Source of the DNA: Notolepis coatsorum
Taxonomy: Eukaryota; Chordata; Actinopteri; Aulopiformes; Paralepididae
Direction: 5' to 3'
Assembly: GCA_963971535.1 (NCBI GenBank)
Contig: OZ020585.1
Span: 158,039,849 to 158,103,848, forward strand
Length of the DNA: 64,000 nucleotides
Part shown: in pieces, positions 1-62,649 of the stretch
Layout: every line of letters begins with the position of its first letter
Position numbering within the stretch: the stretch's first letter is position 1
Translations under genes and position numbers: made by a program
Notes under the pieces: model-generated
Told to the model about the DNA's origin: nothing
Databases searched by the model: none
What the model saw: only the letters and a program-made list of their open reading frames with translations

Positions 1-3000
1 GCAGAGCCAGTAGGACTGACATAACACAGTGCTCCGAGCAGAGCTAGTAGGACTGACATAACACAGTGCTCCGAGCAGAGCCAGTAGGACTGAAATAATA
101 CAGTGCTCCGAGCAGAGCCAGTAGGACTGTACTAACACAGTGCTCCGAGCAGAGGACTGAAATAACACAGTGCTCCGGGCAGAGGACTGAAATAACACAG
201 TGCTCCGAGCAGAGCTAGTAGGACTGACATAACACAGTGCTCCGAGCAGAGCCAGTAGGACTGACATAACACAGTGCTCCGAGCAGAGCTAGTAGGACTG
301 ACATAACACAGTGCTCCGAGCAGAGCCAGTAGGACTGAAATAACACAGTGCTCCGAGCAGAGCCAGTAGGACTGAAATAACACAGTGCTCCGAGTAGAGC
401 CAGCAGGACTGAAATAACACAGTGCTCCGAGCAGAGGACTGAAATAACACAGTGCTCCGAGCAGAGGACTGAAATAACACAGTGCTCTGAGCAGAGCCAG
501 TAGGACTGAAATAACACAGTGCTCCGAGCAGAGGACTGAAATAACACAGTGCTCCGAGCAGAGGACTGAAATAACACAGTGCTCTGAGCAGAGCCAGTAG
601 GACTGTAATAACACAGTGCTCTGAGCAGAGCCAGCAGGACTGAAATAACACAGTGCTCCGAGCAGAGCCAGTAGGACTGTAATAACACAGTGCTCTGAGC
701 AGAGCCAGCAGGACTGAAATAACACAGTGCTCCCAGCAGAGCCAGCAGGACTGAAATAACACAGTGCTCCCAGCAGAGCCAGTATGACTGTAATAACACA
801 GTGCTCCCAGCAGAGCCAGTAGGACTGAAATAACACAGTGCTCTGAGCAGAGCCAGTAGGACTGTAATAACACAGTGCTCCGAGCAGAGCCAGTAGGACT
901 GAAATAACACAGTGCTCTGAGCAGAGCCAGCAGGACTGAAATAACACAGTGCTCTGAGCAGAGCCAGTAGGACTGAAATAACACAGTGCTCCGAGCAGAG
1001 CCAGTAGGACTGAAATAACACAGTGCTCAGAGCAGAGCCAGCAGGACTGTAATAACACAGTGCTCTGGGCAGAGCCAGTAGGACTGAAATAACACAGTGC
1101 TCCGGGCAGAGGACTGAAATAACACAGTGCTCCGGGCAGAGGACTGAAATAACACAGTGCTCCGGGCAGAGCCAGCAGGACTGAAATAACACAGTGCTCA
1201 GAGCAGAGCCAGTAGGACTGTAATAACACAGTGCTCCGAGCAGAGCCAGTAAGACTGTAATAACACAGTGCTCTGAGCAGATCCAGCAGGACTGAAATAA
1301 CACAGTGCTCCCAGCAGAGCCAGTAGGACTGAAATAACACAGTGCTCTGAGCAGAGCCAGTAGGACTGTAATAACACAGTGCTCCGAGCAGAGCCAGTAG
1401 GACTGAAATAACAGTGTTCTGAGCAGAGCCAGTAGGACTGCAATAACACAGTGCTCCGAGCAGAGCCAGTAGGACTGAAATAACACAGTGCTCTGAGCAG
1501 AGCCAGCAGGACTGAAATAACACAGTGCTCCCAGCAGAGCCAGTAGGACTGAAATAACACAGTGCTCCGAGCAGAGCCAGTAGGACTGTAATAACACAGT
1601 GCTCTGAGCAGAGCCAGCAGGACTGAAATAACACAGTGCTCCCAGCAGAGCCAGTAGGACTGAAATAACACAGTGCTCCCAGCAGAGCCAGTAGGACTGA
1701 AATAACACAGTGCTCTGAGCAGAGCCAGTAGGACTGTAATAACACAGTGCTCCGAGCAGAGCCAGTAGGACTGAAATAACACAGTGCTCTGAGCAGAGCC
1801 AGCAGGACTGAAATAACACAGTGCTCAGAGCAGAGCCAGCAGGACTGTAATAACACAGTGCTCCGGGCAGAGGACTGAAATAACACAGTGCTCCGGGCAG
1901 AGGACTGAAATAACACAGTGCTCCGGGCAGAGGACTGAAATAACACAGTGCTCCGGGCAGAGCCAGCAGGACTGAAATAACACAGTGCTCAGAGCAGAGC
2001 CAGTAGGACTGTAATAACACAGTGCTCCGAGCAGAGCCAGTAGGACTGTAATAACACAGTGCTCTGAGCAGAGCCAGTAGGACTGAAATAAAACAGTGCT
2101 CCGAGCAGAGCCAGTAGGACTGTAATAACACAGTGCTCCGAGCACAGCCAGTAGGACTGTAATAACACAGTGCTCCGGGCAGAGCCAGTAGGACTGAAAT
2201 AACACAGTGCTCCGAGCAGAGCCAGTAGGACTGTAATAACACAGTGCTCCGAGCAGAGCCCAGCAGGACTTAAATAACACAGTTCTCCCAGCAGAGCCAG
2301 TAGGACTGAAATAACACAGTGCTCCGAGCAGAGCCAATAGGACTGAAATAACACAGTGCTCAGAGCAGAGCCAGCAGGACTGTAATAACACAGTGCTCCG
2401 GGCAGAGGACTGAAATAACACAGTACTCCGGGCAGAGGACTGAAATAACACAGTGCTCCGGGCAGAGCCAGCAGGACTGAAATAACACAGTGCTCAGAGC
2501 AGAGCCAGTAGGACTGAAATAACACAGTGCTCAGAGCAGAGGACTGTAATAACACAGTGCTCCGGGCAGAGCCAGTAGGACTGTAATAACACAGTGCTCT
2601 GAGCAGAGCCAGTAGGACTGAAATAAAACAGTGCTCCGAGCAGAGCCAGTAGGACTGTAATAACACAGTGCTCCGAGCACAGCCAGTAGGACTGTAATAA
2701 CACAGTGCTCCGGGCAGAGCCAGTAGGACTGAAATAACACAGTGCTCCGAGCAGAGCCAGTAGGACTGTAATAACACAGTGCTCCGAGCAGAGCCCAGCA
2801 GGACTTAAATAACACAGTGCTCCGAGCAGAGCCAGTAGGACTGTAATAACACAGTGCTCCGAGCAGAGCCAGTAGGACTGTAATAACACAGTGCTCCGAG
2901 CAGAGCCCAGCAGGACTTAAATAACACAGTGCTCTGAGCAGAGCCCAGCAGGACTTAAATAACACAGTGCTCCGAGCAGAGCCAGTAGGACTGTAATAAC

Positions 3001-3430
3001 ACAGTGCTCCGAGCAGAGCCAGTAGGACTGTAATAACACAGTGCTCCGAGCAGAGCCCAGCAGGACTTAAATAACACAGTGCTCTGAGCAGAGCCCAGCA
3101 GGACTGAAATAACACAGTGCTCTGAGCAGAGCCAGTAGGACTGTAATAACACAGTGCTCCGAGCAGAGCCAGCAGGACTGAAATAACACAGTGCTCCAAG
3201 CAAAGCCCAGCAGGACTGAAATAACACAGAGCCAGTGGGACTGTAATAACACAGTGCTCCAAGCAGAGCCCAGCAGGACTGAAATAACACAGTGCTCCCA
3301 GCAGAGCCCAGCAGGACTGAAATAACACAGAGCCAGTGGGACTGAAATAAAACAGTGGTCCAAGCAGAGGACTGAAATAACACAAGTGCTCCGGGCAGAG
3401 GACTGAAATAACACAGTGCTCTGAGCAGAG
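1..3430. repeat. 37-bp minisatellite array
   Basis: About ninety head-to-tail copies of a unit reading roughly GAGCAGAGCCAGTAGGACTG plus AAATAACACAGTGCTCC (37 bp). A 30-bp variant lacks CCAGTAG, and a 38-bp variant has CCCAGCAGGACTT. Copies differ at a few fixed positions (AAATAAC/GTAATAAC, CCGAG/CTGAG/CCCAG/CCGGG), so higher-order blocks such as three 30-bp variants in a row recur. Because the repeat rarely makes a stop in several frames, it yields long meaningless open frames of up to about 675 codons. I read it as a non-coding VNTR. Confidence 0.95.
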
Positions 3431-3564
3431 CCAGTAGAGCCCGTAGAGCCAGCAGCCACATCACATAATCCATGCAGACTAAAAATAAAGCTGCTCAGGC
3501 AGAGGATGCTCTGCTCGCTGCTGTGGAGGCAGTGCTGTTTGATACTTACCGTAGGAGTGAGCGA

Positions 3565-3622
<58 letters not shown>

Positions 3623-3684
3623 TATTTACAGTATAAGTGTGTGTGTGTGTGTGTGTGTGTGTGGTATTTACAGTATGAGTGTGT

Positions 3685-3727
<43 letters not shown>

Positions 3728-3757
3728 TGTGTGCGTGCGTGGTATACATTACAGTAT

Positions 3758-3809
<52 letters not shown>

Positions 3810-4723
3810 TAGCAGAGGACTGAAATAACACAAGTGCTCCGGGCAGAGGACTGTAATAACACAGTGCTCCGGGCAGAGCCAGTAGGACTGAAATAACACA
3901 GTGCTCCGAGCAGAGCCAGTAGGACTGTAATAACACAGTGCTCCGAGCAGAGCCCAGCAGGACTTAAATAACACAGTGCTCCGAGCAGAGCCAGTAGGAC
4001 TGTAATAACACAGTGCTCCGAGCAGAGCCAGTAGGACTGTAATAACACAGTGCTCCGAGCAGAGCCCAGCAGGACTTAAATAACACAGTGCTCTGAGCAG
4101 AGCCCAGCAGGACTTAAATAACACAGTGCTCCGAGCAGAGCCAGTAGGACTGTAATAACACAGTGCTCCGAGCAGAGCCAGTAGGACTGTAATAACACAG
4201 TGCTCCGAGCAGAGCCCAGCAGGACTTAAATAACACAGTGCTCTGAGCAGAGCCCAGCAGGACTGAAATAACACAGTGCTCTGAGCAGAGCCAGTAGGAC
4301 TGTAATAACACAGTGCTCCGAGCAGAGCCAGCAGGACTGAAATAACACAGTGCTCCAAGCAAAGCCCAGCAGGACTGAAATAACACAGAGCCAGTGGGAC
4401 TGTAATAACACAGTGCTCCAAGCAGAGCCCAGCAGGACTGAAATAACACAGTGCTCCCAGCAGAGCCCAGCAGGACTGAAATAACACAGAGCCAGTGGGA
4501 CTGAAATAAAACAGTGGTCCAAGCAGAGGACTGAAATAACACAAGTGCTCCGGGCAGAGGACTGAAATAACACAGTGCTCTGAGCAGAGCCAGTAGAGCC
4601 CGTAGAGCCAGCAGCCACATCACATAATCCATGCAGACTAAAAATAAAGCTGCTCAGGCAGAGGATGCTCTGCTCGCTGCTGTGGAGGCAGTGCTGTTTG
4701 ATACTTACCGTAGGAGTGAGCGA

Positions 4724-7892: not shown

Positions 7893-8373
7893 AATAATAT
7901 AAATAATGCAGGACCTGTTGCAGAGGTCTTTATTCGGCATGCAACAACACTCAATGTTTTAGCGGTACACACACAGCGGTTAGTTTTTAGCACACACACC
8001 GGAACACACACGCATGCATTGTCTCTTTAGAATCGCCGATGCGATTCGTCTCTGCGATTACCCATCCCGTCGTCCTTCCCCCCCAAGGGCAGCCGGGAGC
8101 AGACAGGCGTCAACGTGAGCCGCGCCAGGGGACCAATCCAAGTGCTCCTGTCCGTCTTCGTCAAGGACGCCACAGCGTTAGCGATCTGTTGTTGTGCATG
8201 TTTTTCCATTGGGTTTATCTTATCGGGGGGGAAACCCTTGCGAGCACGGGGAGAACATGCAAACTCCACACAGAAAGGCCTGGGAGATACCCCACCTGGG
8301 TACCTGGCATCATGGAAACCTGGTCCCCAAGCGGGAATCGAACCCTGGACCTTCCTGCTGTGAGGCGACAGTG
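7893..8373. repeat. Dispersed teleost-type repeat, fragment
   Basis: The part at about 8215-8370 (ACGGGGAGAACATGCAAACT, then AATCGAACCC and TGCTGTGAGGCGACAGTG) has the form of a very common fish interspersed repeat that I recognise by its wording but cannot assign to a named family. Overlapping open frames of 63-112 codons in it are not conserved-looking. 7893-8214 is unassigned. Confidence 0.5.
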
Positions 8374-13690: not shown

Positions 13691-13925
13691 ACAAAATTAT
13701 CTCTGTTATGTTCATTGGCATACTATCAACACCACTGTTAGGCACTGCACATAACATACAATCAATTAAAAACAATACACTACCTTCCATTGTTTGGGGC
13801 TCTTGTTACAGTTTTTTACGACTGCTTTGACGCATTTTGCACATCAGAGTTTCAATGTGCAAAACTCAAAATGCTAATTGCTAAACTGACTTTAAAAATG
13901 CATACTCTAAGATACTAAATGCTAT

Positions 13926-14376
13926 TGTTGTGGCTGATGGTTGTTTAACACAGCAGGAGACGATATTTCCAATTTTAACAAGTAGGTAATTTATTTAGGA
14001 GAAGAAGTTTTAACAGCAAAAGCTATGGCTCAGTAGACGGTCACCACAGTTGAAGGAAAACACTCTAACTCTCAATCCCCCTGCTTGTCCCCTAAATCCC
14101 CTCTCAGTCCTGCCCCCACATGACAGATATGATGACGTGTCATATCATGTCAGATATGACATGACGTACATTAAGATGACACGTAGATTTAACATCGGAG
14201 AGAGATAAAAACATTAAGAACATCGAAGAGAGATAAAGACATTAAGAAGAACATAGATTTAGATAAAAACATTAAGAACATCGAAGAGAGATAAACAAGA
14301 TATGATGTACACACACGATATGATGTAAAACATTAAGAACATCGAAGAGAGATAAAGATTTAGTGAGATGTGTGTG

Positions 14377-14411
<35 letters not shown>

Positions 14412-14985
14412 ATGTGTGTGTGTGTCTGTGTGTGTGTGCGTCTGTGTACAGACGTGTGTGTATTGTATGTGTGTATTGTGTGTGTGTGTCTGTGTGTGTG
14501 TGCGTCTGTGTACAGACGTGTGTGTATTGTATGTGTGTATTGTGACACAGGGAATGTGTGTGTGTGTGTGTGTGTGTCGGTGTGTATGTCGACTGTGTGT
14601 GTCTGTGTGTGTGTGTGTGTGTGTCTGTGTGACTGTGTGTGTCTGTGTGTCTGTGTGTGTGTGCTGTGTCTGTGTGTGTGTGCTGTGTATGTGTGTGTCT
14701 GTGTGTCTGTGTGTGTGTGCTGTGTCTGTGTGTGTGTGCTGTGTATGTGTGTGTCTGTGTGTCTGTGTGTGTGTGCTGTGTATGTATGAAAGAGAGAAAA
14801 GACACAAGATTAGAGCACACGATATGATGTACTGAAATGTCCATCTGCCTATCTTGAGGTTGTTTTAAGAACATCAGCCAGACTGTCGCCCTAGTGTCTT
14901 TGAGCCCTGCTAGTTGACCTATATTAAACTAGTCAAGACTAACCCCTTTCCTACCTCCACCCCCGTATACACATTTTCCACAACA
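13926..14985 (-). repeat. ERV 3' LTR
   Basis: 1060 bp, TGTTGTGG...CCACAACA on either strand (a perfect 8-bp terminal inverted repeat). An unusual feature is a GT/CA microsatellite-like block of about 420 bp (14369-14788), with repeats of TGTGTACAGACGTGTGTGTA and of GTGTGTGCTGTGTCTG. It also carries tandem variants of ACATTAAGAACATCGAAGAG at 14210-14355. An AATAAA on the minus strand lies 65 bases from the LTR 3' end. Confidence 0.96.
13990..13995 (-). terminator. ERV LTR polyadenylation signal
   Basis: AATAAA on the minus strand (TTTATT on plus) inside CTCCTAAATAAATTACC. Its position near the downstream end of the LTR is where R-region poly(A) signals lie. The same signal is in the 5' LTR at about 25751-25756. 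Confidence 0.7.
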
Positions 14986-15000
14986 TTCCCCCATTTGGGG
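14986..15000 (-). promoter_or_regulatory. ERV polypurine tract
   Basis: Minus strand reads CCCCAAATGGGGGAA immediately before the 3' LTR TGTTGTGG. The GGGGGAA directly at the LTR boundary is the expected plus-strand primer site. Confidence 0.85.
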
Positions 15001-15949
15001 CTATCCCTAGTCCCACCCAAATCATATAACCAAGAAAATGTGAACGTCTAACTAAACGAGAAACCACAATTATATAATAAAAGTTTAAATGCCTAATCTA
15101 AACCAGAAACCTTACTTCATTCACTGGACCCCTAACGGACCAACAAAGGCTGACTACCGTTCTTACCAAAACACAAAACCGTTCCAAACAAGAGTAATAA
15201 TAAAACATCAACAAAATACCCCAATTTATAATCCTAACCTGACAGACAAATCCCCCCAACCTCCACCGCTTACCAAATGAGCCACAGTTCCGGCCGGAAA
15301 CCGCGACTCTCATCAGGGAAAGGAGAAGTTGACCGTCAGAACTAAACATAGAACATCCCTCCCAAAAAAAAAATGACATTGTCTCTTCCATAACATTGAG
15401 TCCTAGTGTCCATCGCTCAGCCCCCCTTCCATGCCCACGCCATAGTCTCCTCACCGTATTGCCAAAAAGTCACATTTTGCCAATACCGCAACCACCACGC
15501 CACACCTCCAGTCCCCGTAGAAGCATGTCCCCATGCCTGGACGGGAGGCGCTGGTCCCGACCTCACCACGTGTCCCCCCATCTTCGACGGGAGGTGCCCA
15601 TCTTGCCCACTGCGTTAGCCCCCCCCCTTTGTCCCTCCAGTCCCCAGAACCGATCCCCAGACCACTTCTTCTCAATGCTTCCTCAGGCTCAGAACCGACA
15701 CTCTGCCGATGCCCCTTCCCATTCCGGTTTGACCAGGACCACGAGTAAAATAAACAAAAAATAATAAAAAAATAAAAAATAATGCAATGATTTTCAATGG
15801 TTGCAATCTCTATGCCGAAGGATCATTAGAAAATCAGACTAAAATTCCTAGTTAAAGGAATAAACCAACAAAACTGCACTCAGACCATCCCCCGTCACTC
15901 TTAAAGGAAAGAACCAACAAAAAGAAAATGTCCCTACCTCACCATACCC
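15001..15949 (-). other. ERV region between env and PPT, no assigned gene
   Basis: About 950 bp separates the env stop from the polypurine tract, much more than in simple gammaretroviruses. The longest minus-strand open frame (15098-15454) is 118 codons if opened from a GTG, with the first ATG at codon 22. It has no motif I recognise. The stretch could be an untranslated 3' region, an acquired sequence, or a small accessory gene. I cannot choose from the sequence. Confidence 0.5.
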
Positions 15950-17935
15950 CTAATCCTCTATCCCCTCGTCTCCCTCTAAGGCAGCATAAAGCTGAGGACA
16001 TGGCCCGATTTGTGGCTCAATCTCTTTCTGTCCCACCATCAGCATTTGGCTCGTTACGTGTGAAGTTACCAGCCTACCCAAGAGAGGCATACCACAACAG
16101 AAAAGGAGAACCAATATCAACCCTGCCACCCCAATGGATATCCCCGTCTGCATCACTATGCTTCCCCACTGTCCCAATCTTTCCAACACCCCACTCCCCC
16201 ACCATTCTTCATTCCGGCCAGAATTCCCCCTCAACTCCTCCCTCAAATCCTTCAGCTTAGCCATGGCCTCGGAGAACTTTCCCCCTGGCCCCACATTCGT
16301 CGGAATGAATGTGCAGCAGTACTGTCCAAACATGGAACAGACTCCACCCTTCTCCGCCATTAACCAGTTCAGAGCCTGTCTATTCTGCCACGCCACCGTA
16401 CTGGTCGCGTGCATCTGGTCCCCCATTGCATCCAACGCCTCCTCGGTGTAGTTGAGATACCGCTGCTGATTGTAAAACAAATAGTTGATCCACCCGGTGT
16501 TCTTATTGACCGATATCCATGGCAGAATAGACTCAAACCCTGCCGCAATCTCATTCTTAGCCATGAACTCGGCTGGAATGCCCCTTGGCTGTCCTATGCT
16601 GTCCAGATACACCCTTGGGTCTGCCTTGTAGCTACGCTTCGTTCGAGAGATAGGAGACTCAGAAGGTCCTTCCGTCACTGATAATGGTAGGACCACCATT
16701 GGCATGATCGCCTGAACCCGGGCACATCTACCTGACCAATCTAAAGGAAGTGTATTCCTCAACCTCCTACCGCCGCAGAGCCAGTATTGGTCCGCCAGTG
16801 CCATATCCTGGACATGAAAAGGGCAAGCTACAGGCCGTGGGTTGGTATCCACTCCCTTTAACACGACCCCGTGTCCACACTTTCCTTCTTTCGTGCAGTT
16901 AGTCGTGATGCTCCAAATAGTAGTGCACCGCCCCTCTGCCACCTCCCCTACGTCCCGGGTCCCCTCCTTTTGCAAGCACTCGAAATCCTTGGTCAGCCAT
17001 AGTTTGACACCTCTGGGTATTGGCAACCCCGTCGCTACCCCCTGCACACGTACATCCAATTTCCTACAACGTTCCCGCATAGTGACATCCTTGAAATCCG
17101 TGACGTTTCCTGCCGCCTTAAAACGACTAGAGCCGAGAAACCCCAAACACTCTGCCTCGCACCAAGAGCGACTATTATGGGGCCCCTCCCATGCCTCTGC
17201 GTCCCTGTCACACTGAGCCCAACTGAACTTCGTGCCCTTCACCAGCAGCCTATCCGGACGTGCCTTGGAGCAGACATAACAATCCTCTATTTGATTCTGC
17301 GCGCTCGTGTACTGGACCCACTTAAACCACTCATTCCCTAAAGCCGCCCTATACATCGGGTCAGCCTCCGGGTCTTCCTCGTCATAGTCATAGTCGCCCC
17401 CATCTTGTTCCCCGGAAGGAAGCAAACCCCTCAACCTGGCCCAGAGTGAGCCCACTGAGTCCCTCAACGTTCCGGCTGTCCTCTGGAACATATCCTGTCC
17501 CCCCACCTCTTCCGACTCAGCGTCCTTGACCTCCCTTTTTCCCCTCACCCCTGTCCCCTGTGCCTGGTTCGGGACAGGCTCAACCCTCCTATCTACCCCC
17601 ACAACCCGATCCTCGTTAGTATAATGGTAAGTATCCCCGCCTGTAACGGGGGAATGGTCAAAATCAAAAACATGCCCTTGCGGTCCTACGGGAAACACCC
17701 CTTTTGGTTGTAGTCTTATCTTCTCCCCCCCTTCCTCGATGGAGGGCAGAGGGGGCGCCTGATTCTGAGCCTGGTCATGAAAGCCTGCCGGTACTTGAGC
17801 CTGAGCGGGACCCCGTGGGACTCCTACCCACTCAAACCCGTCATCCTCAAGGACGGGTCGACCGTGACGGTTCTCAATGACGTCGTTGTGCCCGGCCGAC
17901 CGTCCGCACACTGCTGCCAACATCTGCGGGAGCAT
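15950..17935 (-). CDS. env: ERV envelope glycoprotein (Env)
   Basis: 661 codons from the first ATG, no internal stop. SU carries a CYVC motif at residues 219-222. RTKR at 431-434 fits a furin site separating SU from a TM subunit of about 227 residues. In TM a CX6CC motif spans 533-541, preceded by the heptad region after the putative fusion segment. One membrane span lies near 594-617, with a cytoplasmic tail of about 40 residues. CXXC with CX6CC is the gamma-type covalent Env arrangement. N-linked sites include NVT, NCT and NYT. The ATG overlaps the pol TGA by one base. A hydrophobic run begins about three codons upstream of this ATG, so the signal peptide and true start probably come from a spliced upstream exon. 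Residues about 97-111 are encoded by DNA antisense to a tRNA-Asp-like sequence. Residues 40-190 are Gly/Asp/Glu/Pro-rich and unlike a folded receptor-binding domain. The protein acts in membrane fusion and entry; whether it is expressed is unknown. Confidence 0.93.
   Translation of the reverse strand: MLPQMLAAVCGRSAGHNDVIENRHGRPVLEDDGFEWVGVPRGPAQAQVPAGFHDQAQNQAPPLPSIEEGGEKIRLQPKGVFPVGPQGHVFDFDHSPVTGGDTYHYTNEDRVVGVDRRVEPVPNQAQGTGVRGKREVKDAESEEVGGQDMFQRTAGTLRDSVGSLWARLRGLLPSGEQDGGDYDYDEEDPEADPMYRAALGNEWFKWVQYTSAQNQIEDCYVCSKARPDRLLVKGTKFSWAQCDRDAEAWEGPHNSRSWCEAECLGFLGSSRFKAAGNVTDFKDVTMRERCRKLDVRVQGVATGLPIPRGVKLWLTKDFECLQKEGTRDVGEVAEGRCTTIWSITTNCTKEGKCGHGVVLKGVDTNPRPVACPFHVQDMALADQYWLCGGRRLRNTLPLDWSGRCARVQAIMPMVVLPLSVTEGPSESPISRTKRSYKADPRVYLDSIGQPRGIPAEFMAKNEIAAGFESILPWISVNKNTGWINYLFYNQQRYLNYTEEALDAMGDQMHATSTVAWQNRQALNWLMAEKGGVCSMFGQYCCTFIPTNVGPGGKFSEAMAKLKDLREELRGNSGRNEEWWGSGVLERLGQWGSIVMQTGISIGVAGLILVLLFCCGMPLLGRLVTSHVTSQMLMVGQKEIEPQIGPCPQLYAALEGDEGIED
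17610..17653 (+). pseudogene. tRNA-Asp 5'-half-like sequence, antisense inside env
   Basis: The plus strand reads TCCTCGTTAGTATAATGGTA then AGTATCCCCGCCTGTAACGG and GGGA. This matches the 5' half of vertebrate tRNA-Asp(GTC), recalled from general knowledge, at 40 of 44 positions. Differences are at tRNA positions 15, 20, 36 and 40. The D arm, the A box (TTAGTATAATGG) and the anticodon arm are present. The anticodon position reads GTA instead of GTC. The homology stops just after the anticodon stem: no variable loop, T arm, B box or 3' acceptor follows. It is therefore a tRNA fragment, not a tRNA gene. Env translation runs through it in frame on the other strand. Confidence 0.85.
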
Positions 17936-18300
17936 CAGCAGGCACCTTCCAGTTGCCGTCTCGGACCCTCCATGTCGGGTTCTGCATAACTGCGATCGAT
18001 TGTATCCCCCAAGAGATCGCCGCTGGCCTTTATGCAGTGATTGAAGTGGAACCAGGTCGCTGATCCTTTGACTTGGACTGCCGTTCCAGTCGATCGGATC
18101 ACCTCATACGGGCCCTCTCTCCGGGGTGATGACCACTTTCTCTTGTGGACCTTTACGAAGACCAGGTCCCCAGGGATCAGTCTCGGTTTGGTGGCTTCCT
18201 TCTCCGCCTCCTTCACCCCCTTTTTCTCCTTTCTCTGCTCCTGTCGAAACACAGCTTCATGTATTTTAGTCACTTGCTGAAGATATTTTTTCAGATCTTG
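17935..18300 (-). pseudogene. pol: ERV integrase C-terminal domain, cut off by an in-frame TAG
   Basis: The pol frame resumes directly after the TAG at 18301-18303 and stays open for 121 codons to a TGA at 17935-17937. It contains the SH3-like integrase C-terminal domain pattern (PGDLVFVKV, WSSPRREGPYEV, FHFNHC) after a Lys/Glu-rich linker. It is in the same frame as the rest of pol, so the break is a single stop codon, not a frameshift. Without this domain an integrase would be expected to be defective, unless the TAG is read through at some level. Confidence 0.88.
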
Positions 18301-21300
18301 CTAAAAAATATCTAATGCCGGGCCCCTAGCCAGGTGTCTAAATGGCGGTGCTGGCATGCTGCGGCCTGTAAGCATTTCATGCGGTGTTAGCTGTGTTTGG
18401 CGGTTTACGCTGCTTCTAATAGCCATCAGAGCAAGTGGCAAAGCATCAATCCAGTTAAGCTTAGTTTGCATACAGATTTTCAACAGTTTGTTTTTAATGA
18501 CCAGATTGGCCCTTTCCACCTTCCCCTGCGACCCGGGACTATAGACACAGGAAAGGCGCTGTCTTATACCTAATTTCTGCATCAGCCCTTTAACCACCTT
18601 GTCGATGAACTCGCGGCCATTATCGCTTTGTAATATCGTGGGAATTCCAAATCTCGGAATGACCTCGCGACACAGGAACTTGATCACTGTGTCCGCGTTC
18701 TTGTGTTTAGATGGAATGGCCTCAATCCAGCGACTAAAGCAGTCCTCTACTACCAGGAGGTATCGTTTGCCCTGCACTGGCGTTATCATATCTGTATAGT
18801 CCATAATCAGATGTCTGAATGGTCCCTCAGGGAGGGGTGTGTAAGCCGCCACTGTCGGTACTCCTTTGCGCACATTGCCCTGTAAGCATGTTAAACACCT
18901 GGCTAGTGTAACGTCAATTTGTGCCTGAAGCTTTGGGGACCAAAATCCCATTTTCGTGATTCGTTTCAGGGTCTCTGCTCTTCCACAGTGATCAACACCA
19001 TGAGCCTCAGGTATCACCAAGGACAGAAGATCGATGGAGGCGACTATCAAACCGTTATGACTCCTCCACAGACCATCTGCCCCCCTTACAGCCCCCCTCT
19101 CCGTCCACGACTGTTTCTCGGCCTGCGTGGCTGAGTCCTGAAGATCACTCAAATTATCCTCAGTTACCTCAGTCGTCAGTTCGGCCGCAAACATCAGAAC
19201 AGCCGTGGACGGCACCGCAGCCGCCGCCTTCGCGGCCTCGTCCGCCGCGTTGTTTCCCGTCGTCACAAAGGACAGGTCTTTTCTGTGTGCCTGGCACTTT
19301 ACGATAGCAATGCTTTTGGGCAACTTTACAGCCTGAATAAGCGCCACAACCTGCTTGTGGTGAAGGATCGGTGAGCCGTCCGATTTCTTAAAGCCTCTTG
19401 CCTTCCAAATGGCCGCGAATAGGTGGCATACGCCATGCGCATACGCAGAGTCTGTAAAGATGTTAACCGTGCGATCTTTAGCTATTATGCATGCTTCTGT
19501 TAGTGCTATTAGTTCTGCAAGCTGGGCCGAACATGGTTGCATGCATTTTCCGGCCTTTCTTGTTAGTGTTTCTCCGTTAGGTTTGCACTGTACGACGGCG
19601 TATCCTGACCTTAAATTTTCCCCCTCCCGATAGCAGGACCCATCCACAAAAAGTGAGAGTTCTGCTATCGCAAGCGGGTCGACTCCCAAATCAGGACGGA
19701 GTTTCACGAAAGCCTGTACCTCCACCTCGCACTCATGCGGTTGACCCTCGCTCGGGAGTGGTACCAGATCCGCCGGGTTACTGCCGTGGCATGTTTTTAT
19801 CGTAACGTCCGAGTACTGCAGGAGCCTCATGTAAGCCTGTTGCCGTTGGCTGGTCAGAACAAATTTGCCTCTTTCAATCAAGTTTGCCAATTTGTGATGT
19901 GTCCAAATGCAAATGTCATATCCCATTGTCACGGCCGTTGCCTTCTCATACATCAAATGTGCTGCGGCCAGGGCCTGATAACAAGGTGGCAGACCCTGCT
20001 CTACCGGCGAAAGAGCTCTAGAGTAATATGCTATCGGTTGTTTTTTCCCACTCACCCCCTGTGTTTGAGTCAGGACAGCTGTCGCATGCTGCGCTCTATG
20101 TGAGACGAATAGGTGGAAACACTTCTCATAATCCGGCAGCGCCAGGGCAGGGGCCTGTAACAACAGACGCTTAATGTTTATGAACGCGTCCTCCCCCTCC
20201 TCGGTCCATGTCAAGGGAGCGCGAAGCTTGTCTGTACCCGCCTCTTTTATCATCATCCTCAACGGCGCTGTCGCTATCGTATAGTCCTCCACCCACTCAG
20301 AGCTGTACCCAGTCATCCCTAAAAACGTCATCATCTGTCGGACCGTCAATGGCCTAGGTGCCTTGGATACAGCTTCGAGTTGCGTGGGTGAGATGTTTTT
20401 TATGCCCTTTTGAATGACGCGAGACAAGTACTCAACTTTTGGCTGGCAGTACTGCAGTTTTGAACGGGATGCCTTGTGGCCTCCCACGGCAAATCCACTC
20501 AAAACTTTGATGGAGTCCTCATGGCACTGCTGACGTGTATCCGAGCAGATTAGAATGTCATCTGCATACAGTAAAACCGTGCTGAGTAGTGTGTCGCACA
20601 CTCCTTGCAAGTCTTCCTTGAGCGCCTTCGAGAAGTAATGCGGCGAGTGCGCGAACCCTTGTGGCAACCGGGTGTAAGAGTATTGTTTCCCCCTGTGGGT
20701 AAAAGCAAACAGATACTGAGACTCTTTTTCCAATGGAACACTGAAGAATGCCTGCGTGAGATCAATGACCGTATAGTACTGCGAGCTACTCGGGATGTTT
20801 GTCAGGAGGGTGTGTGGATTAGCGACTTCCGCCTCTGGTCCAGACACCACGTCGTTCACCGCCCTCAAATCGTGTACCAGTCTGTACCTAGCCCTGTCCG
20901 CCTTTAGCACTGGGTGGATAGGTGTATTACATCTGGATTTGAAAGGGACGAGCACTCCCCCCTTTAACAGTCCCTCAATCTGATGTGATATAGCTTCCTC
21001 CGACTCTGGCTTCATTGTATACTGTCTGATAAAGGGTGGTCTACAACCCTTCTTTAACCTGACCTTCACTGGCTGTGCCGACAATATTAGACCCACATCT
21101 GTGTCGTGTTTTGACCACAACCGTTCCGGGGTGCGCGCCAACATGTCCTGTTCCAGCAAAGCATCCGCCTCTGGAATAACACAAGGGTCTCCTGGTAATC
21201 TGATTACTTGCGGTTTTGCCAAAACTGAAAAGGAAATCATTATTTTTATGAAACTCCCATCTGCGCTGTTCCAAATTAGCGGAGATTCCGTGGAGACCCA

Positions 21301-22098
21301 CCTTTGAGTCTCGGATTCCTGTATCATTGAACCTAGATGTTCGGATTCGTAACCAGGATTTATTCTCAGAGTGATGTGTGGGGCGGCGTCTCTTAGTCTA
21401 TGTTGTTCCCGTAGATACTTACCCGTGTTAACCCTCAACGCCGCGCCCTGTCTCCCTACAATTATCGTAGATGAGTTAATCTGCACCTGCTCGGGCTGTC
21501 CCTGCAACCATGCCTTGTTCCTAACTAGGTCACTATTCGTCAAATATTGTAGTGTGCAATGTGCCTCCATGTTTGTTTGTCTAGACTGAGGCAGTTGGGT
21601 TTTCAGAAATGGCTCCCAGGGGTCACAGACCCTTTGCAGCTCTGCATCTATGTTGCCCAGCCAGAACACAGTGGCCTCTTTCTCCCCCGTCTTTTGTAGC
21701 ATCATTTGGTACACGTCTTGTTCAATTTGAATCCCCTCAGGCGTACATAGGATTTTACAGCCTAGTTTACACATTGCATCTCGTCCCAAGAGATTGCGCG
21801 GGGTGCTGTCCGAAATTAATACAGGTATTGTTATGGTCTTGTTGTTATACGTCATAGAGATTGGATCTGATGTGGGTATTAATTGTGTTTTTCCCGAGAA
21901 TCCGACCGTCCGAACATACTGTCCAGACTGGGGTAAGTGAGCGGCGTATTTTTGCTTTATGCAGGAAAAACCTGCTCCAGTGTCTGCCATCATCTCTGTT
22001 AATTTGCCCTCCACTAGGACCTGCAGAATAGGTTCTTGCTCAGCTCCCTTGGAAACCACAATCATTTGATTTCCCCCCGTCGCATTCTCTGGGCACCC
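18301..22098 (-). CDS. pol: ERV Pol: protease, reverse transcriptase, RNase H, integrase
   Basis: Same frame as gag, entered through the gag UAG; the first ATG is at 22065. Numbering from that ATG: protease with ADTGAG (Asp28-Thr-Gly) and the LLGRD segment near 93; reverse transcriptase with LPQGF at 467-471 and catalytic YADD at 500-503; RNase H with Asp808 (FVDGS), Glu857, Asp872 (TDSAY) and Asp942; integrase zinc-binding His1022, His1026, Cys1057, Cys1060; and the catalytic triad Asp1089, Asp1148, Glu1184, with 35 residues between the last two. All key catalytic residues are present. The ORF ends at TAG 18301-18303 in the linker before the integrase C-terminal domain, making this Pol truncated. 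Length and order match gamma-like retroviruses. Confidence 0.95.
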   Translation of the reverse strand, partial: GCPENATGGNQMIVVSKGAEQEPILQVLVEGKLTEMMADTGAGFSCIKQKYAAHLPQSGQYVRTVGFSGKTQLIPTSDPISMTYNNKTITIPVLISDSTPRNLLGRDAMCKLGCKILCTPEGIQIEQDVYQMMLQKTGEKEATVFWLGNIDAELQRVCDPWEPFLKTQLPQSRQTNMEAHCTLQYLTNSDLVRNKAWLQGQPEQVQINSSTIIVGRQGAALRVNTGKYLREQHRLRDAAPHITLRINPGYESEHLGSMIQESETQRWVSTESPLIWNSADGSFIKIMISFSVLAKPQVIRLPGDPCVIPEADALLEQDMLARTPERLWSKHDTDVGLILSAQPVKVRLKKGCRPPFIRQYTMKPESEEAISHQIEGLLKGGVLVPFKSRCNTPIHPVLKADRARYRLVHDLRAVNDVVSGPEAEVANPHTLLTNIPSSSQYYTVIDLTQAFFSVPLEKESQYLFAFTHRGKQYSYTRLPQGFAHSPHYFSKALKEDLQGVCDTLLSTVLLYADDILICSDTRQQCHEDSIKVLSGFAVGGHKASRSKLQYCQPKVEYLSRVIQKGIKNISPTQLEAVSKAPRPLTVRQMMTFLGMTGYSSEWVEDYTIATAPLRMMIKEAGTDKLRAPLTWTEEGEDAFINIKRLLLQAPALALPDYEKCFHLFVSHRAQHATAVLTQTQGVSGKKQPIAYYSRALSPVEQGLPPCYQALAAAHLMYEKATAVTMGYDICIWTHHKLANLIERGKFVLTSQRQQAYMRLLQYSDVTIKTCHGSNPADLVPLPSEGQPHECEVEVQAFVKLRPDLGVDPLAIAELSLFVDGSCYREGENLRSGYAVVQCKPNGETLTRKAGKCMQPCSAQLAELIALTEACIIAKDRTVNIFTDSAYAHGVCHLFAAIWKARGFKKSDGSPILHHKQVVALIQAVKLPKSIAIVKCQAHRKDLSFVTTGNNAADEAAKAAAAVPSTAVLMFAAELTTEVTEDNLSDLQDSATQAEKQSWTERGAVRGADGLWRSHNGLIVASIDLLSLVIPEAHGVDHCGRAETLKRITKMGFWSPKLQAQIDVTLARCLTCLQGNVRKGVPTVAAYTPLPEGPFRHLIMDYTDMITPVQGKRYLLVVEDCFSRWIEAIPSKHKNADTVIKFLCREVIPRFGIPTILQSDNGREFIDKVVKGLMQKLGIRQRLSCVYSPGSQGKVERANLVIKNKLLKICMQTKLNWIDALPLALMAIRSSVNRQTQLTPHEMLTGRSMPAPPFRHLARGPALDIF

Positions 22099-22101
22099 CT
22101 A
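22099..22101 (-). promoter_or_regulatory. Gag-Pol UAG readthrough stop
   Basis: gag ends in TAG followed by GGG on the minus strand, and the downstream frame is identical to the pol frame without any shift. A UAG followed by a purine between in-frame gag and pol is the classic suppression arrangement of gammaretroviruses. I therefore read this stop as regulatory rather than as a lesion. A pseudoknot 3' of it was not modelled. Confidence 0.82.
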
Positions 22102-23919
22102 GTGATTACCCCCCTGGTTTCGGGGCCCTCCTGTCTCCCCCTGGTCGTGGGGCCCTTGTGACTCCCCCTGGCGCACGGGTCTTCCATACTCCGAGCCGGG
22201 ACGGTATGGTTGCCTACATCTCATTTCCCTGTGTCCCTGCATGCCGCAGTTCCAACAGTGGAAACGGGGAAACTGTTGTTCGTTCCCCGGTCCCTGTGTA
22301 AACCGTGGGCCTGATTGCCCATTCCCTGCCTGCCGCCTGGACGCCTGGTTCTGTGAACTATAGCCATAGCTTCTCACTACCTGAGGTGCAGGCGGGGGTC
22401 CCTGGTCCTGCATGGGTGGAGAGGTAGCAGATGACACCATTACTGCCTGCAACCTCCTTTGGGGCAGCAGTTGTTGCTGAGTTAACTTCCTTGAGTCATT
22501 TCTATCCTGATCCCTGACTTTCTGCTCCTGAGCCCTTTGCTTCTCCACACTATGTGTTACATGTGCACAGAACAAAGGATAAGTCATGTCCATTAACCCC
22601 ACCACGTCTTCCAGTCTATTCTTAACCACCTCTGGAAGCCCTCTCATCACACTTTCTCTAAACATCGCTCTCTGCAACGGGTCAATTTCTGGGTTGTGTC
22701 CTAGCTCACCTCTCCACTCCTTCAGTATTTTGTTCACATAGGTGCCAGGCCCTTCCGTCTCCATTATGGGGTTGCCCGCCAGTTTTGCCGGATTAATACG
22801 TGATGGATATTGATTCCTGAGTTTGTACCACAACGCCGCTCTATGCGCGTTGAATATGTCTCCATCATGGGCCTGCGTGTCGCATGCCACTCGCATCGAT
22901 GTATCACCCATGATGTCCCGGCAGGCACCAATTCCTAGCAAGCGCGTCAACAGGGATTTGACGTCACCCACTGCTAGCAGAAAAGATGACGTATTTTCCT
23001 CAAACTGCGTGATCCACCTGGAGGCTCCTTCTGAAAGGTCCGGTAGCCTTGCTATTATGCCATCGATGTCTAGAGGTGACCATGGCATGTGAAAGATATC
23101 GTTCCCCTTTATTAGCAGGGGAAACTGGCCTGTACTTGTCACACTTCCCAGGAATGTAGGGGCGAAAGTCAGGGTTCCTGTAATGTTTCCTTTCTCCTGT
23201 GCTGGTTTCGTGTCGTTCTCATCTTCCTCCTCAGTCAACAGTTTGGTGTGGCCACACGCCCCGTGTTTCCCTGATGTCTGCTGTGCCACATTTTGACGGG
23301 CCTCTTCCTCTATCTTCCTCCCGACTCCCTCCCTCTGCCTGCCCAGGTTCTCTACCTCCTCTTCCTCTGCATCATACAACTTCCGACGTACTGTCTCGCC
23401 ATATGCCGCCAGGACTTTCGGATAGAGATCCTGCGGGGTCAGTTTGGGGGGGGTATCTCGCCTAAGGGAGGTCTCTGATCTAGCGGAGGTTTCTGACCTA
23501 GCGGGGGTTTCTGACCTAGCGGGTGTCCCTAATTCCGTCTCCTCATATTCTCCTCTTATTGTCACAGTGCCCACCGGCAATTGCGTGACATAAGGTGGGG
23601 ATGTTGGTTTCCCTATATCCGACTCTCTCTGATTTAGCGCTAAAGCTTCCTGCCTGTATGCTCTCCCCTTCTGGGCGTAGAGCTTCATTACCCCCAACTC
23701 TTCTGTCCTCTTTTTCAACCTCTTTTTGCTGCTGTCGCCTGGCTTGTGGTTACGAATCATTACATTCATCTCTTCGCATACGTCGAGATCAAAAGTACCT
23801 CCGGAAGGCCATTTTGTGTCCCCGGCCTTTGTACGCCTCTGCCAACGGACACCTACCTTGAGAATTAGGTTCTTTATGAGCGGGTTCCGGTCTAACAGTA
23901 TGTCCTCTGCTGTATGCAT
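22102..23919 (-). CDS. gag: ERV Gag polyprotein
   Basis: 605-606 codons; the ATG at 23919 is the first in frame after an upstream TAA. The N-terminal matrix-like part is basic (residues 20-90). It lacks a Gly2, so no myristoylation signal is seen. Residues 131-156 hold three to four PARSET-type hexapeptide repeats, visible in DNA as an 18-bp repeat at 23470-23525. An LYPKVL at 165-170 fits the LYPXnL late-domain pattern. A capsid-like region spans about 265-480. A single zinc knuckle CX2CX4HX4C (CWNCGMQGHREMRC) lies at 555-568, followed by a Gly/Gln-rich tail. One knuckle rather than two is gammaretrovirus-like. It forms the virion core and packages RNA. Confidence 0.93.
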
Positions 23920-24234
23920 CGTTGTTTAGTGTGTATGTGTGTTTATTGTGTTGTGTGTGTGTGTGTGTGGTTGTACTTCAGCTACTACTACTCTACAACT
24001 ACTACTCCAGGACACAGTTAACCTAGATCTACTACTACTCTACAACTACTACTCCAGGACACAGTTAACCTGGATCTACAACTACAACTACCACTCCAGG
24101 ACACAGTTAACCTGGATCTACTACTCCAGGACACAGTTAACCTGGTTCTACTCTACAACTACTACTCCAGGACACAGTTAACCTAGATCTACAACTACAA
24201 CGCTACTACAACTCGGTGTGTGTGTATGTGTGTG

Positions 24235-24271
<37 letters not shown>

Positions 24272-24441
24272 CAGTGTGTGTGTCTGTGTGTGTGTGTATG
24301 TGTGTATGTCGGTGTGTGTGTGTGTTTGTTGTGTGTGATTGTGTGTGTGTGTGTGTGTGACTGTGTGTGTGTGCGTCACAACCCGCTGTCTACCGGGACA
24401 CAGGAATGTGTGTGTGTGTGTGTGTGTGTGTCGGTGTGTGT

Positions 24442-24473
<32 letters not shown>

Positions 24474-24494
24474 CTGTGTGTGTGTGTGTGTGTG

Positions 24495-24525
<31 letters not shown>

Positions 24526-25666
24526 CTGTCTGTGTGTAGTGACTGTGTGTGTGTGTGTGTCTGTGTGTGTGTCGGTGTGTGTGTGTGTTTGTGTGTGATT
24601 GTGTGTGTGTGTGTGTGTGACTGTGTGTGTGTGACTGTGTGTGTGTGCGTCACAACCCGCTGTCTACCGGGACACAGGAATGTGTGTGTGTATGTGTGTG
24701 TCTGTGTGTGTGTGTGTGTGAGTGTGTGTGACTGTGTGTGTGTGCGTCACAACCCGCTGTCTACCGGGACACAGGAATGTGTGTGTGTGTGTGTGTGACT
24801 GTGTGTGTGTATTGTATGTGTGACTGTGTGTGTGTGTGTGTGTGTGTGTGACTGTGTGTGTGTGCGTGTGTGTGACTGTGTGTGTGTACGTGTGTGTGAC
24901 TGTGTGTGTGTGTGTGTATTGTATGTGTGACTGTGTGTGTGTGTGTGTGTGTGTGACTGTGTATGTGTGCGTGTGTGTGACTGTGTGTGTGTGCGTGTGT
25001 GTGACTGTGTGTGTGTGTGTGTGTAGGCCCAATAGTGCAAACAAGCTAGAGTCTCGTCTCACGCTGCCCAAATTGTTTTTTTTTTTTACTCTCTGCTCAT
25101 ATTATCACAGCTAGCCTCTCTGTAGCAACAACTTCACAAGCCAATAAGAAAACGAACAATAGTGTATCCGTAAACGTAATTAGTTTGACACAGAGAATGC
25201 CAGCTGTAATAGTGTGTTTTGAATAACAGCAGAGCGGCACCGGTTTTTGTTTTGAAAATTGAGAGTCTTATCTACAGAGGACAGAAGGCACAGTTATAAC
25301 AAGGAAGTGGGGAATGTGGAGAGTGTCGTAAAGGGATCAGGGAAAGGGATCAGGGAGAAGTTTGAACAGATGGAGAAAAATTTGACCAGAGGTCGAAAAC
25401 ATGCAATTAAAATTGATTAGTGGCGCACTTATAGCCTGTTAAAAGAGGAATCGCCCTAGTGTAAACACCTCACCACTCGTGTTCGTTTTAGCCGTCCATC
25501 CAGACCTCGTCACACAGTCAGCTCAACTTTTTCCTCCCTCAGAATCTCTTACGGATATTCTAATCAAAAGCAAAAATGCTCACCTGTGTTTGTTTGTCGA
25601 CACCGCCAGAATTTCTACGGGAGAGGTCCGGAGCTGGCCGTGTGAGGGGGCCCGGCAGGGCGGTCT
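23920..25666 (-). repeat. ERV 5' leader with GT arrays and short tandem repeats
   Basis: A 1.75-kb untranslated stretch between PBS and gag. 23975-24210 has five copies of CCAGGACACAGTTAACC within CTACTACAACT-rich repeats. 24216-25025 is a GT/CA array broken three times by CGTCACAACCCGCTGTCTAC plus CGGGACACAGGAATGTG. The GACACAGGAATGTGTG part resembles the GT block of the LTR (GACACAGGGAATGTGTG), hinting that the leader repeats spread from the LTR or vice versa. 25026-25666 is non-repetitive. No minus-strand ORF of note. Confidence 0.85.
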
Positions 25667-25684
25667 ACAGGTCAAGGGTCACCA
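25667..25684 (-). promoter_or_regulatory. ERV primer-binding site
   Basis: TGGTGACCCTTGACCTGT on the minus strand, two bases inside the 5' LTR. The first nine bases TGGTGACCC equal the complement of the tRNA-Trp 3' end as used by avian alpharetroviruses. The remaining nine do not match tRNA-Trp without a gap, so the primer tRNA is uncertain. Confidence 0.7.
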
Positions 25685-25686
25685 AA

Positions 25687-26135
25687 TGTTGTGGCTGATG
25701 GTTGTTTAACACAGCAGGAGACGATATTTCCAATTTTAACAAGTAGGTAATTTATTTAGGAGAAGAAGTTTTAACAGCAAAAGCTATGGCTCAGTAGACG
25801 GTCACCACAGTTGAAGGAAAACACTCTAACTCTCAATCCCCCTGCTTGTCCCCTAAATCCCCTCTCAGTCCTGCCCCCACATGACAGATATGATGACGTG
25901 TCATATCATGTCAGATATGACATGACGTACATTAAGATGACACGTAGATTTAACATCGGAGAGAGATAAAAACATTAAGAACATCGAAGAGAGATAAAGA
26001 CATTAAGAAGAACATAGATTTAGATAAAAACATTAAGAACATCGAAGAGAGATAAACAAGATATGATGTACACACACGATATGATGTAAAACATTAAGAA
26101 CATCGAAGAGAGATAAAGATTTTGTGAGATGTGTG

Positions 26136-26170
<35 letters not shown>

Positions 26171-26742
26171 ATGTGTGTGTGTGTCTGTGTGTGTGTGCGT
26201 CTGTGTACAGACGTGTGTGTATTGTATGTGTGTATTGTGTGTGTGTGTCTGTGTGTGTGTGCGTCTGTGTACAGACGTGTGTGTATTGTATGTGTGTATT
26301 GTGACACAGGGAATGTGTGTGTGTGTGTGTGTGTCGGTGTGTATGTCGACTGTGTGTGTCTGTGTGTGTGTGTGTGTGTGTGTCTGTGTGACTGTGTGTG
26401 TCTGTGTGTCTGTGTGTGTGTGCTGTGTCTGTGTGTGTGCTGTGTATGTGTGTGTCTGTGTGTCTGTGTGTGTGTGCTGTGTCTGTGTGTGTGTGCTGTG
26501 TATGTGTGTGTCTGTGTGTCTGTGTGTGTGTGCTGTGTATGTATGAAAGAGAGAAAAGACACAAGATTAGAGCACACGATATGATGTACTGAAATGTCCA
26601 TCTGCCTATCTTGAGGTTGTTTTAAGAACATCAGCCAGACTGTCGCCCTAGTGTCTTTGAGCCCTGCTAGTTGACCTATATTAAACTAGTCAAGACTAAC
26701 CCCTTTCCTACCTCCACCCCCGTATACACATTTTCCACAACA
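25687..26742 (-). repeat. ERV 5' LTR
   Basis: 1056 bp, same ends and internal order as the 3' LTR. Differences seen: one substitution just before the GT block and three GT-length changes. On the minus strand it reads TGTTGTGG...CCACAACA and should supply the promoter. I did not find a convincing TATA box, so the start site is not called. Confidence 0.96.
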
Positions 26743-26977
26743 CTATGCTTACATATCAAGTGCAAAACTGTTAATACAAAGTGCAAAACTCTAAATCATA
26801 TGCTCCAGTCTCAGAATACAGCCACCTAATACTACATCAATGTTCAATTGCTTATTGCTACACAGGCAGATCACTAAATCAATTCCAACAGGTGTTTGTA
26901 CTAATGTCTCATTACCTTCAACAGCCTTGCCCAGGTGAGTAGCATTGCAATACAATTGATAATATCTTCACCACTAC

Positions 26978-57816: not shown

Positions 57817-58234
57817 TGTTACGTTCTGGACACCGACTGTGGTCGGTGACCACCCACATTCCTGGCATATGTCACTGGGCTTGTCACCTGCCATTTCCCT
57901 GTCAATTAGTGCTGTCACTTAGGGGTGGTTCCTGATTGGCTGTCACGGGGGTGTGTGCGGAATGTTGGTATTTGGTGTCTATGTAACATACCTCTCTTCT
58001 GCTTGTTCATTGTCAGGTCTTCACTAATTGCGTTCGGGGATAACGCGGACGGTTCTACTCTGGACCTCCAATAAGCTCCCATTTACCTTATTTTCCACTT
58101 GTGCTTTTAGCACTTGTCTCTCTTAGAATTTACTCTGTGTTCTTACTATTAAAGTCGAACCTGTTCAAGAGTAAACACTCTCTGTCTCTGTGATTGCCTT
58201 CACCCATTGGAATTCACCTACCTCCATTCTGACA
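57817..58234 (+). repeat. gypsy 5' LTR
   Basis: TGTTACGTTCTGG...CATTCTGACA. ATTAAA at 58148-58153 can serve as poly(A) signal. A weak TATA-like CTATGTAACATA lies about 31 bases before the predicted transcript start at 58012. Confidence 0.96.
58012..58022 (+). promoter_or_regulatory. Predicted transcript start / self-primer in LTR
   Basis: GTCAGGTCTTC is the exact reverse complement of the 11 bases right after the LTR. In Tf1 the first 11 bases of the mRNA anneal to the PBS, so R most likely starts here. The same element is at 62876-62886 in the 3' LTR. Confidence 0.75.
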
Positions 58235-58245
58235 GAAGACCTGAC
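58235..58245 (+). promoter_or_regulatory. gypsy self-priming primer-binding site
   Basis: GAAGACCTGAC directly abuts the LTR end GACA. No tRNA-type PBS beginning TGG is present there. Perfect complement of 58012-58022. Confidence 0.8.
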
Positions 58246-58257
58246 CATCAGAATTCC

Positions 58258-61200: not shown

Positions 61201-62649
61201 TCGCGCCAGTTTGATCTTCCTGGTCGGGAGGAGCAGCCCCATCCCATTATTCCACCGGCCTTGATTTTGGCACCAGTGTCTTGGGGCATAGAGAAGGTGG
61301 TAAGGTCGGCAATAACGCGGGAGCCCGATCCTGGTGGGGGTCCTCCGGGACGGTCGTATGTTCCCAAGGTGGCGCGCTCACGCTTGCTACAGTGGGCACA
61401 TGCGTCATCCCTCACCAGCCACCCAGGGGCAACCAGGACCCTGGAATTTATCCGTAGGAGGTTCTGGTGGCCGACAGTGGAGGGGGATACGCGTTCCTTT
61501 GTGGCGGCCTGTCCGGTGTGCGCACGTAGTAAGACCTCTCGACGGGCACCGGCGGGTCTCCTCCGACCACTTCCTATTCCTAAACGACCCTGGTCACACA
61601 TATCTCTGGACTTTATTTCTGGTCTTCCCCTTTCGGACGGGTTCACCACCATCTTGGTGGTGGTGGATCGGTTCTCTAAGGCGGCTCACTTTGTCCCTCT
61701 CCCCAAGCTTCCCTCGGCCCGGGAGACTGCTGATTTAGTTATACAGCATGTCTTTCGGGTCAACGGGCTGCCAGTAGATATCGTGTCGGACCGGGGTCCT
61801 CAGTTCGCCTCCAGGTTCTGGAAGGCGTTTGCCGCCGGCCTCGGCGCCTCTGTCAGTCTGTCGTCTGGGTTCCATCCGCAGTCGAACGGGCAGACGGAGA
61901 GGGTCAACCAGGATTTGGAGGGGGTCTTGAGATGTTACGTTGCCGGTAGTCCGGCAACGTGGAGTAGGAGGTTGGCTTGGGCTGAGTACGCGCATAATAC
62001 CCTTCTCTCCTCTTCTACCGGTATGTCTCCCTTTCAGTGCCAGTATGGTTTTCAACCTCCTCTGTTTCCCGAGCAGGAGCAGGAGGCGGAGGTGCCCTCG
62101 GCCCAGGCACATGTGGCTCGCTGTCGCAGGACGTGGAAACAGGTTCGAAAGGCGCTACAGAAGGTTTCGGTTAGTACCCAACGGCAGGCTAACCGTAAGC
62201 GTCGTCCGGCTCCAGTTTACCGTCCAGGGCAGCGGGTTTGGCTTTCCACCCGGGATCTCCCTCTCCGGGTGGAATCCAAGAAGCTGGCTCCTCGCTTTAT
62301 AGGACCATTTAAAGTGATTCATCAGGTTAATCCAGTGGCTTACAAGCTACGACTTCCGAGCTCTATGAGGGTTCATCCGACGTTTCATGTGTCCCTGTTG
62401 AAGCCATTCCTCTCATCGCCCTTGGCCCCGCCACTGCCTGTGGTTCCTCCGCCCCGGTTTATTGGCGGTCAACCCATTTACACGGTGCGGAGGATACTGG
62501 GTTGTAGGCGGAGGGGTAGGGGGTTTCAGTTCTTGGTGGATTCGGAGGGGTACGGGATAGAAGAGCGTTCTTGGGTGCCTCAAAGGGATATTTTAGATCC
62601 CAGCCTGATCGTTGATTTCCGGCGGCTGAATCCCGAGGCTCCTAGGTGA
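58258..62649 (+). CDS. gypsy Gag-Pol polyprotein with chromodomain
   Basis: 1463 codons from ATG 58258; the frame is open upstream through the PBS but has no ATG there. Order: Gag with a capsid-like region at 90-250 and a zinc knuckle [14 protein letters not shown] at 310-323; protease DSGAAG (Asp381); reverse transcriptase with [14 protein letters not shown] (686-694) and YLDD (716-719); RNase H Asp866, Glu909, Asp936, Asp979; integrase zinc finger His1048, His1055, Cys1085, Cys1088; catalytic Asp1118, Asp1178, Glu1214; GPF module at 1349-1351; chromodomain about 1407-1456 ([26 protein letters not shown]). No frameshift between Gag and Pol, as in Tf1. Every catalytic residue is present. The chromodomain probably directs integration to particular chromatin. 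Confidence 0.97.

Follow-up and report, generated by a model that had tools for sequence, protein, structure and literature searches.

How does half of a cellular tRNA come to lie, in antisense, within an open env frame of a retrovirus? The question is raised by a block of 44 bases in the window, i.e. the whole 64,000-nucleotide stretch of DNA analysed here, which an earlier note had read as the 5′ half of tRNA-Asp(GTC), copied by reverse transcriptase (RT) and kept as coding sequence. The match is real and well above chance, and the block is probably a tRNA patch made by RT.

The provirus and its env frame

The block is located in a young endogenous retrovirus with near-identical LTRs, for which the following features were identified:

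13926-26742, minus strand: provirus, with LTRs, target-site duplication, gag-like ORF, pol and env
25687..26742, minus strand: 5′ LTR, from the alignment of the LTR pair
13926..14985, minus strand: 3′ LTR, from the same alignment
13922..13925 and 26743-26746, no strand: the two copies of the target-site duplication CTAT, read off the flanks
14986..14996, minus strand: polypurine-tract-like AAATGGGGGAA, immediately upstream of the 3′ LTR, by eye
25676..25684, minus strand: beginning of the primer binding site, TGGTGACCC, whose 9 contiguous nt pair with the 3′ end of tRNA-Trp
22099..23919, minus strand: gag-like ORF with one CCHC-type knuckle, by eye
18301..22065, minus strand: pol ORF with protease, RT, RNase H and integrase domains
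15950..17935, minus strand: env ORF of 661 aa, gamma-type by TLV_coat (PF00429) and motifs
17402..17935, minus strand: env leader (residues 1-178), containing the tRNA block, with RGKR at 131-134

The alignment of the LTR pair spans 1062 columns, with 1053 identities, one mismatch and four gaps (8 gap bases), and the LTRs start with TGTTGTGG and end with CCACAACA. The ORFs follow one another on the minus strand in the order gag-like, pol and env. No Pfam match to the gag-like ORF was found at E 0.001. Among the best 60 of 292 matches to pol, the best solved chains for the RT were named 'Reverse transcriptase/ribonuclease H p80', a label of MLV/XMRV type, and the best solved chain for the integrase was PFV integrase. 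The pol ORF ends in a stop at 18303-18301 (minus strand) although the provirus is young; the same frame is open onward to about 17937, near the env start, and integrase C-terminal-like residues could be recognized by eye past the stop. Between the primer site and gag, a long leader at 23929-25040 consists mostly of short direct repeats and GT-rich simple repeats, an arrangement that looks unusual for a retrovirus.

The env ORF contained a TLV_coat domain (E 2.3e-10) and the features of a gamma-type Env, namely CXXC in SU (CYVC at 219-222), CX6CC in TM (533-541) and, between them, a furin-like site (RTKR at 431-434). The AlphaFold prediction of Env (4 sequences) had a mean pLDDT of 35.7 and says nothing on the structure of the leader, the part of Env in which the block is placed. 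The leader frame is open over 534 nt, and among dinucleotide shuffles only 23/5000 were open in the same frame and 55/5000 in any frame; this rarity supports coding, and the leader is probably translated. It may lie outside mature Env, because neither a homologue nor a signal-peptide-like segment was found: protein searches with residues 1-230 and 26-222, which detect only proteins with exact 5-residue words in common, had 5651 and 519 candidates, respectively, none of which matched at E 10; no homologue of the leader was found in the PDB or Pfam; and the best 17-residue mean hydropathy in residues 1-200 was 0.39, short of an N-terminal hydrophobic signal peptide. A spliced-in signal exon for env is possible. 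Gamma-type Envs carry a signal peptide and a receptor-binding domain at the position of this leader, as described in PMC9967133.

A whole-Env search, in which only the 7994 candidates with most words in common were scored, yielded three relatives, of which two come from assemblies ('lgn') and the third from the fish Denticeps, so that a ray-finned fish is the likely host. The alignment of the first (P0001) to env begins at about residue 181, and the N-terminus of the Denticeps relative (P0003) fits the leader no better than shuffles do (233/500). One of the three, P0002, gave a weak local alignment across the block, with 13/500 shuffles reaching an equal score; it is best read as chance, since the same stretch of P0002 pairs with env residues of about 290-330 in the full alignment. 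No relatives were found in IMG/VR by env protein, exact 35-mer, pol protein or env alignment, and the pattern matches there (2 in one search and 62 in another) failed confirmation.

The tRNA-Asp block

The block itself is a single feature:

17610..17653, plus strand: nt 1-44 of tRNA-Asp(GTC), 40/44 identical, ungapped; antisense to env

The tRNA-Asp reference (72 nt) is called tRNA-Asp(gtc) by ARAGORN; an identical sequence is printed in PMC4694795. Against this reference the plus-strand match, which the earlier note had counted as 40 of 44 bases with the minus strand open in env, was borne out on both points and proved to be free of gaps. The block differs by G to A at both nt 15 and nt 20, by C to A at nt 36 and by C to G at nt 40; the change at nt 36 gives GTA at the anticodon position, just as had been noted. 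The next best site for tRNA-Asp nt 1-44 on either strand of the 64 kb reached 24/44, and 100 first-order Markov resamples of the window, searched on both strands, gave a maximum of 27/44 and a mean of 24.6, so that the match clearly exceeds chance. For human tRNA-Arg, -Gln and -Glu (sequences from PMC12217144), the 5′ half reached 23-25/44 anywhere in the window, and the best plus-strand place for the tRNA-Glu half (24/44) coincides with the Asp block. The left edge of the block is exactly nt 1 of the mature tRNA, and the right edge is nt 44, just beyond the anticodon stem, where the match had been said to end. Combined, these comparisons support a tRNA-Asp origin of the block beyond chance.

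The remainder of the tRNA is absent to the right of the block, where the 3′ half and CCA (31 nt past nt 44) scored no better than in 594/1000 shuffles, and elsewhere in the provirus it reached 17-18/31, not above controls (17-19 of 30-31). Over the whole window, neither ARAGORN (bacterial setting) nor Rfam at the gathering score called any tRNA; with E up to 10, Rfam found no tRNA in 17500-17760 and one weak unrelated match (E 6.5). The blanks indicate that the tRNA half is below the reach of both tools. With no cloverleaf, no 3′ half and no call by either program, a functional or complete tRNA gene is rejected, in agreement with the earlier statement that the T arm is gone and the block is no longer a tRNA.

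As a side observation, the best match to the 3′ half and CCA in the window (22/31 at 8320-8350, minus strand) is outside the provirus, contains a B-box-like GGGTTCGATTCCC, and is perhaps part of a tRNA-related repeat. Elsewhere in the window, the translation of a long ORF at 58207-62649 was recognized by eye as that of a Ty3/gypsy-type retrotransposon, and at 132-4632 a large minisatellite-like array gives rise to long minus-strand ORFs that overlap.

On the minus strand, the block encodes SPVTGGDTYHYTNED, corresponding to env residues 95-109 rather than the 97-111 given earlier, with the third base of the codon for residue 109 coming from outside the tRNA match. Only one of the three antisense frames of intact tRNA nt 1-44 (frame 0) is stop-free, and this is the frame used by env; in the mutated present block, frames 0 and 1 are both open. 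Two of the four changes are synonymous, which is unremarkable (30% by chance), and G+C by codon position did not clearly set the block apart. Scaled from the LTR pair, with a single substitution over roughly 1054 aligned bases, approximately 0.02 post-integration changes would be expected in 44 nt, against the four observed. Given the near-identity of the LTRs, these changes probably arose before integration or at capture, or were already present in the donor or template tRNA; they could partly be host tRNA variants. The youth of the LTRs set against four changes argues against a fresh insertion into the present copy and for inheritance within the viral lineage.

The primer site begins with TGGTGACCC two bases inside from the 5′ LTR, and at 25665-25684 it agrees with tRNA-Trp over 9 contiguous nt and then diverges (10/20 overall). 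A complementarity of 9 nt is short for a working primer site, and the assignment of tRNA-Trp as the primer is weak. tRNA-Asp fits the primer site at 7/20; a fit of 10/20 is found only 19 nt further in, off the site. This fit of 7/20 indicates that tRNA-Asp is not the regular primer, and the reading of the block as a copy of a primer site is rejected for the same figure.

Origin of the block

We consider it probable that the block is an RT patch, made when the plus strand being synthesized in an ancestral virus jumped to a non-primer tRNA-Asp, ran off at the tRNA 5′ end and went back to the viral template. Its identity far above chance, its place inside the internal region of the virus and a tRNA that is not the regular primer are all as expected of a tRNA patch. 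According to PMC4997597, tRNAs other than the primer are packaged by retroviruses, and host RNA can be patched into their genomes. In the ancestor, the growing plus strand would have departed from its minus-strand template within env and been extended on a cellular tRNA-Asp that was packaged but was not the primer. Entry would have been near tRNA nt 44, on the variable-loop side of the anticodon stem, which may have bypassed the modified T arm; there is no special explanation for entry at nt 44 itself. Copying would then have proceeded to the mature 5′ end of the tRNA, with run-off and resumption on viral DNA, and would have left the complement of tRNA nt 44-1 in the viral plus strand. The viral plus strand is indeed complementary to the tRNA, which is the polarity of plus-strand copying, and a growing plus strand on a tRNA template, stopping at the tRNA 5′ end, accounts for both this polarity and the exact edge at nt 1. 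The patch could have been passed on because env stayed in frame, the frame being the sole stop-free antisense frame of the tRNA. It would have been inherited over further viral generations, acquiring the four changes, before the virus became a young germline provirus.

We infer the strand of the switch, the entry and exit steps, the passage through several viral generations and the presence of the block in an expressed Env leader. The block is likewise a putative insertion; a clean insertion of 44 nt shifts the frame, so we have to assume that bases were also lost or gained at one of its putative junctions. Of the earlier proposal that RT copied the tRNA at plus-strand synthesis, the polarity and the start at nt 1 fit, and the capture would have been by template switching. 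That proposal had allowed either a tRNA or a tRNA half as the template. Cleavage in the anticodon loop of tRNAs usually falls near nt 33-36, and a half produced in this way is the less likely template, because the match passes the usual cut and continues through the anticodon stem to nt 44. In a variant route, a 5′ half could have served as an internal minus-strand primer and been copied later, which would give the same product.

It is unlikely, by contrast with the RT patch, that a LINE copied a 3′-truncated tRNA-Asp into an older proviral copy as a tailless retropseudogene that later spread. Truncated tRNA copies made by LINEs occur in mammals, and LINE-like RT fragments were seen by eye in the same window; the block edges, however, show no target-site duplication (1 base in common there), the longest word common to the two 40-nt flanks is 5 nt and is away from the edges, a 44-nt insertion plus a duplication would need luck to stay in frame, and the provirus is too young for four post-integration changes.

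A somewhat smaller chance is given to a twofold claim, namely that the antisense tRNA-Asp half was recruited by a circulating retrovirus as lasting, selected Env-leader coding sequence and that the block also anneals host tRNA-Asp or its 5′ fragments. That the block has been kept as an annealing site for tRNA-Asp or a 5′ fragment, whether for second priming, packaging or as a small-RNA target, appears very unlikely. Its predicted duplex with tRNA nt 1-44 has −77.5 kcal/mol, as compared with −19.2 on average and −31.1 at the lowest in 200 shuffles, and two of the four changes lead to G-U pairs (16% expected for at least two among four random changes); but any antisense tRNA copy anneals, the exact complement reaching −94.7 kcal/mol, and the regular primer site lies elsewhere and is not Asp-like.

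The chance is just as slight that a tRNA-Asp-derived SINE inserted antisense in env and that the block represents its head. SINE heads begin at tRNA nt 1, as the block does, yet truncation of SINE copies usually affects the 5′ end and does not leave just the head, no 3′ half or B box adjoins the block (594/1000 shuffles being as good), and the block is single-copy within the 64 kb. Chance or common protein ancestry, in which ordinary env residues merely resemble tRNA-Asp and to which the weak P0002 alignment across the block might have pointed, has a negligible probability and is rejected: the block matches at 40/44 positions, a level that the 100 resamples did not approach (27/44 at best), and no leader homologue was found in two protein searches, the PDB or Pfam, with the Denticeps N-terminus matched equally well by 233/500 shuffles.

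Meaning and known systems

The host-tRNA patches in retroviral DNA that are described in PMC12220202 come from laboratory selections and cell lines. An endogenous provirus with an in-frame patch that apparently outlived its founding event would show that packaged non-primer tRNAs can supply new retroviral coding sequence. Because tRNA-Asp occurs in an HIV-1 case as well, the idea that certain tRNAs are preferred as donors can be put to the test. If the recruitment of an Env-leader peptide were true, a tRNA-born peptide would be a selected part of a viral surface-protein precursor. Unless conservation reveals such a selected role, the importance of the block is moderate. Among the titles and abstract openings covered by a literature search, none pointed to a tRNA patch in the env of an endogenous retrovirus, which is no proof of absence.

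Four known systems resemble the block in part. In Drosophila copia, priming is by a 5′ half of tRNA-iMet, so that there, too, a 5′ tRNA fragment interacts with the RT of a retroelement; in copia, however, the half is the regular primer at the regular site, whereas the present block is within env and the virus has a primer site that is not Asp-like. Defective interfering RNAs of Sindbis virus, reportedly described by Monroe and Schlesinger in 1983, are said to contain cellular tRNA sequence, reportedly that of tRNA-Asp, and are similar in that such sequence is retained in viral RNA. They differ in that Sindbis is an RNA virus, with the tRNA at the 5′ end of the RNA as a product of the viral RNA polymerase, not of RT.

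Closer cases are reverse-transcribed tRNAs joined to retroviral DNA, i.e. a MoMLV circle with tRNA-Gly between the LTRs (Colicelli and Goff 1986, cited after PMC12220202) and a tRNA-Gly beside an HIV provirus (PMC12220202). According to that source, both are at the end of the viral DNA and lack bases at the tRNA 5′ end (four in MoMLV and five in HIV), with CCA in the HIV case, whereas the block here is internal, with its 5′ end intact and the 3′ half absent. The same source describes HIV-1 revertants (HITME) in which 63 nt of tRNA-Asp or 65 nt of tRNA-Glu replaced a hairpin; the HITME study (2006) is also cited in PMC1819390. Together, the HIV-1 and MoMLV patches in PMC12220202 temper the earlier description of the block as unusual. 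HITME resembles the block in that a cellular tRNA (tRNA-Asp in one case) was patched into the interior of a retroviral genome. As known from the description, those were laboratory revertants in which an engineered hairpin in nef was replaced and the tRNA was later removed; by comparison, the block here is found in an endogenous virus, comprises the first 44 nt of the tRNA, and runs antisense within an open env frame.
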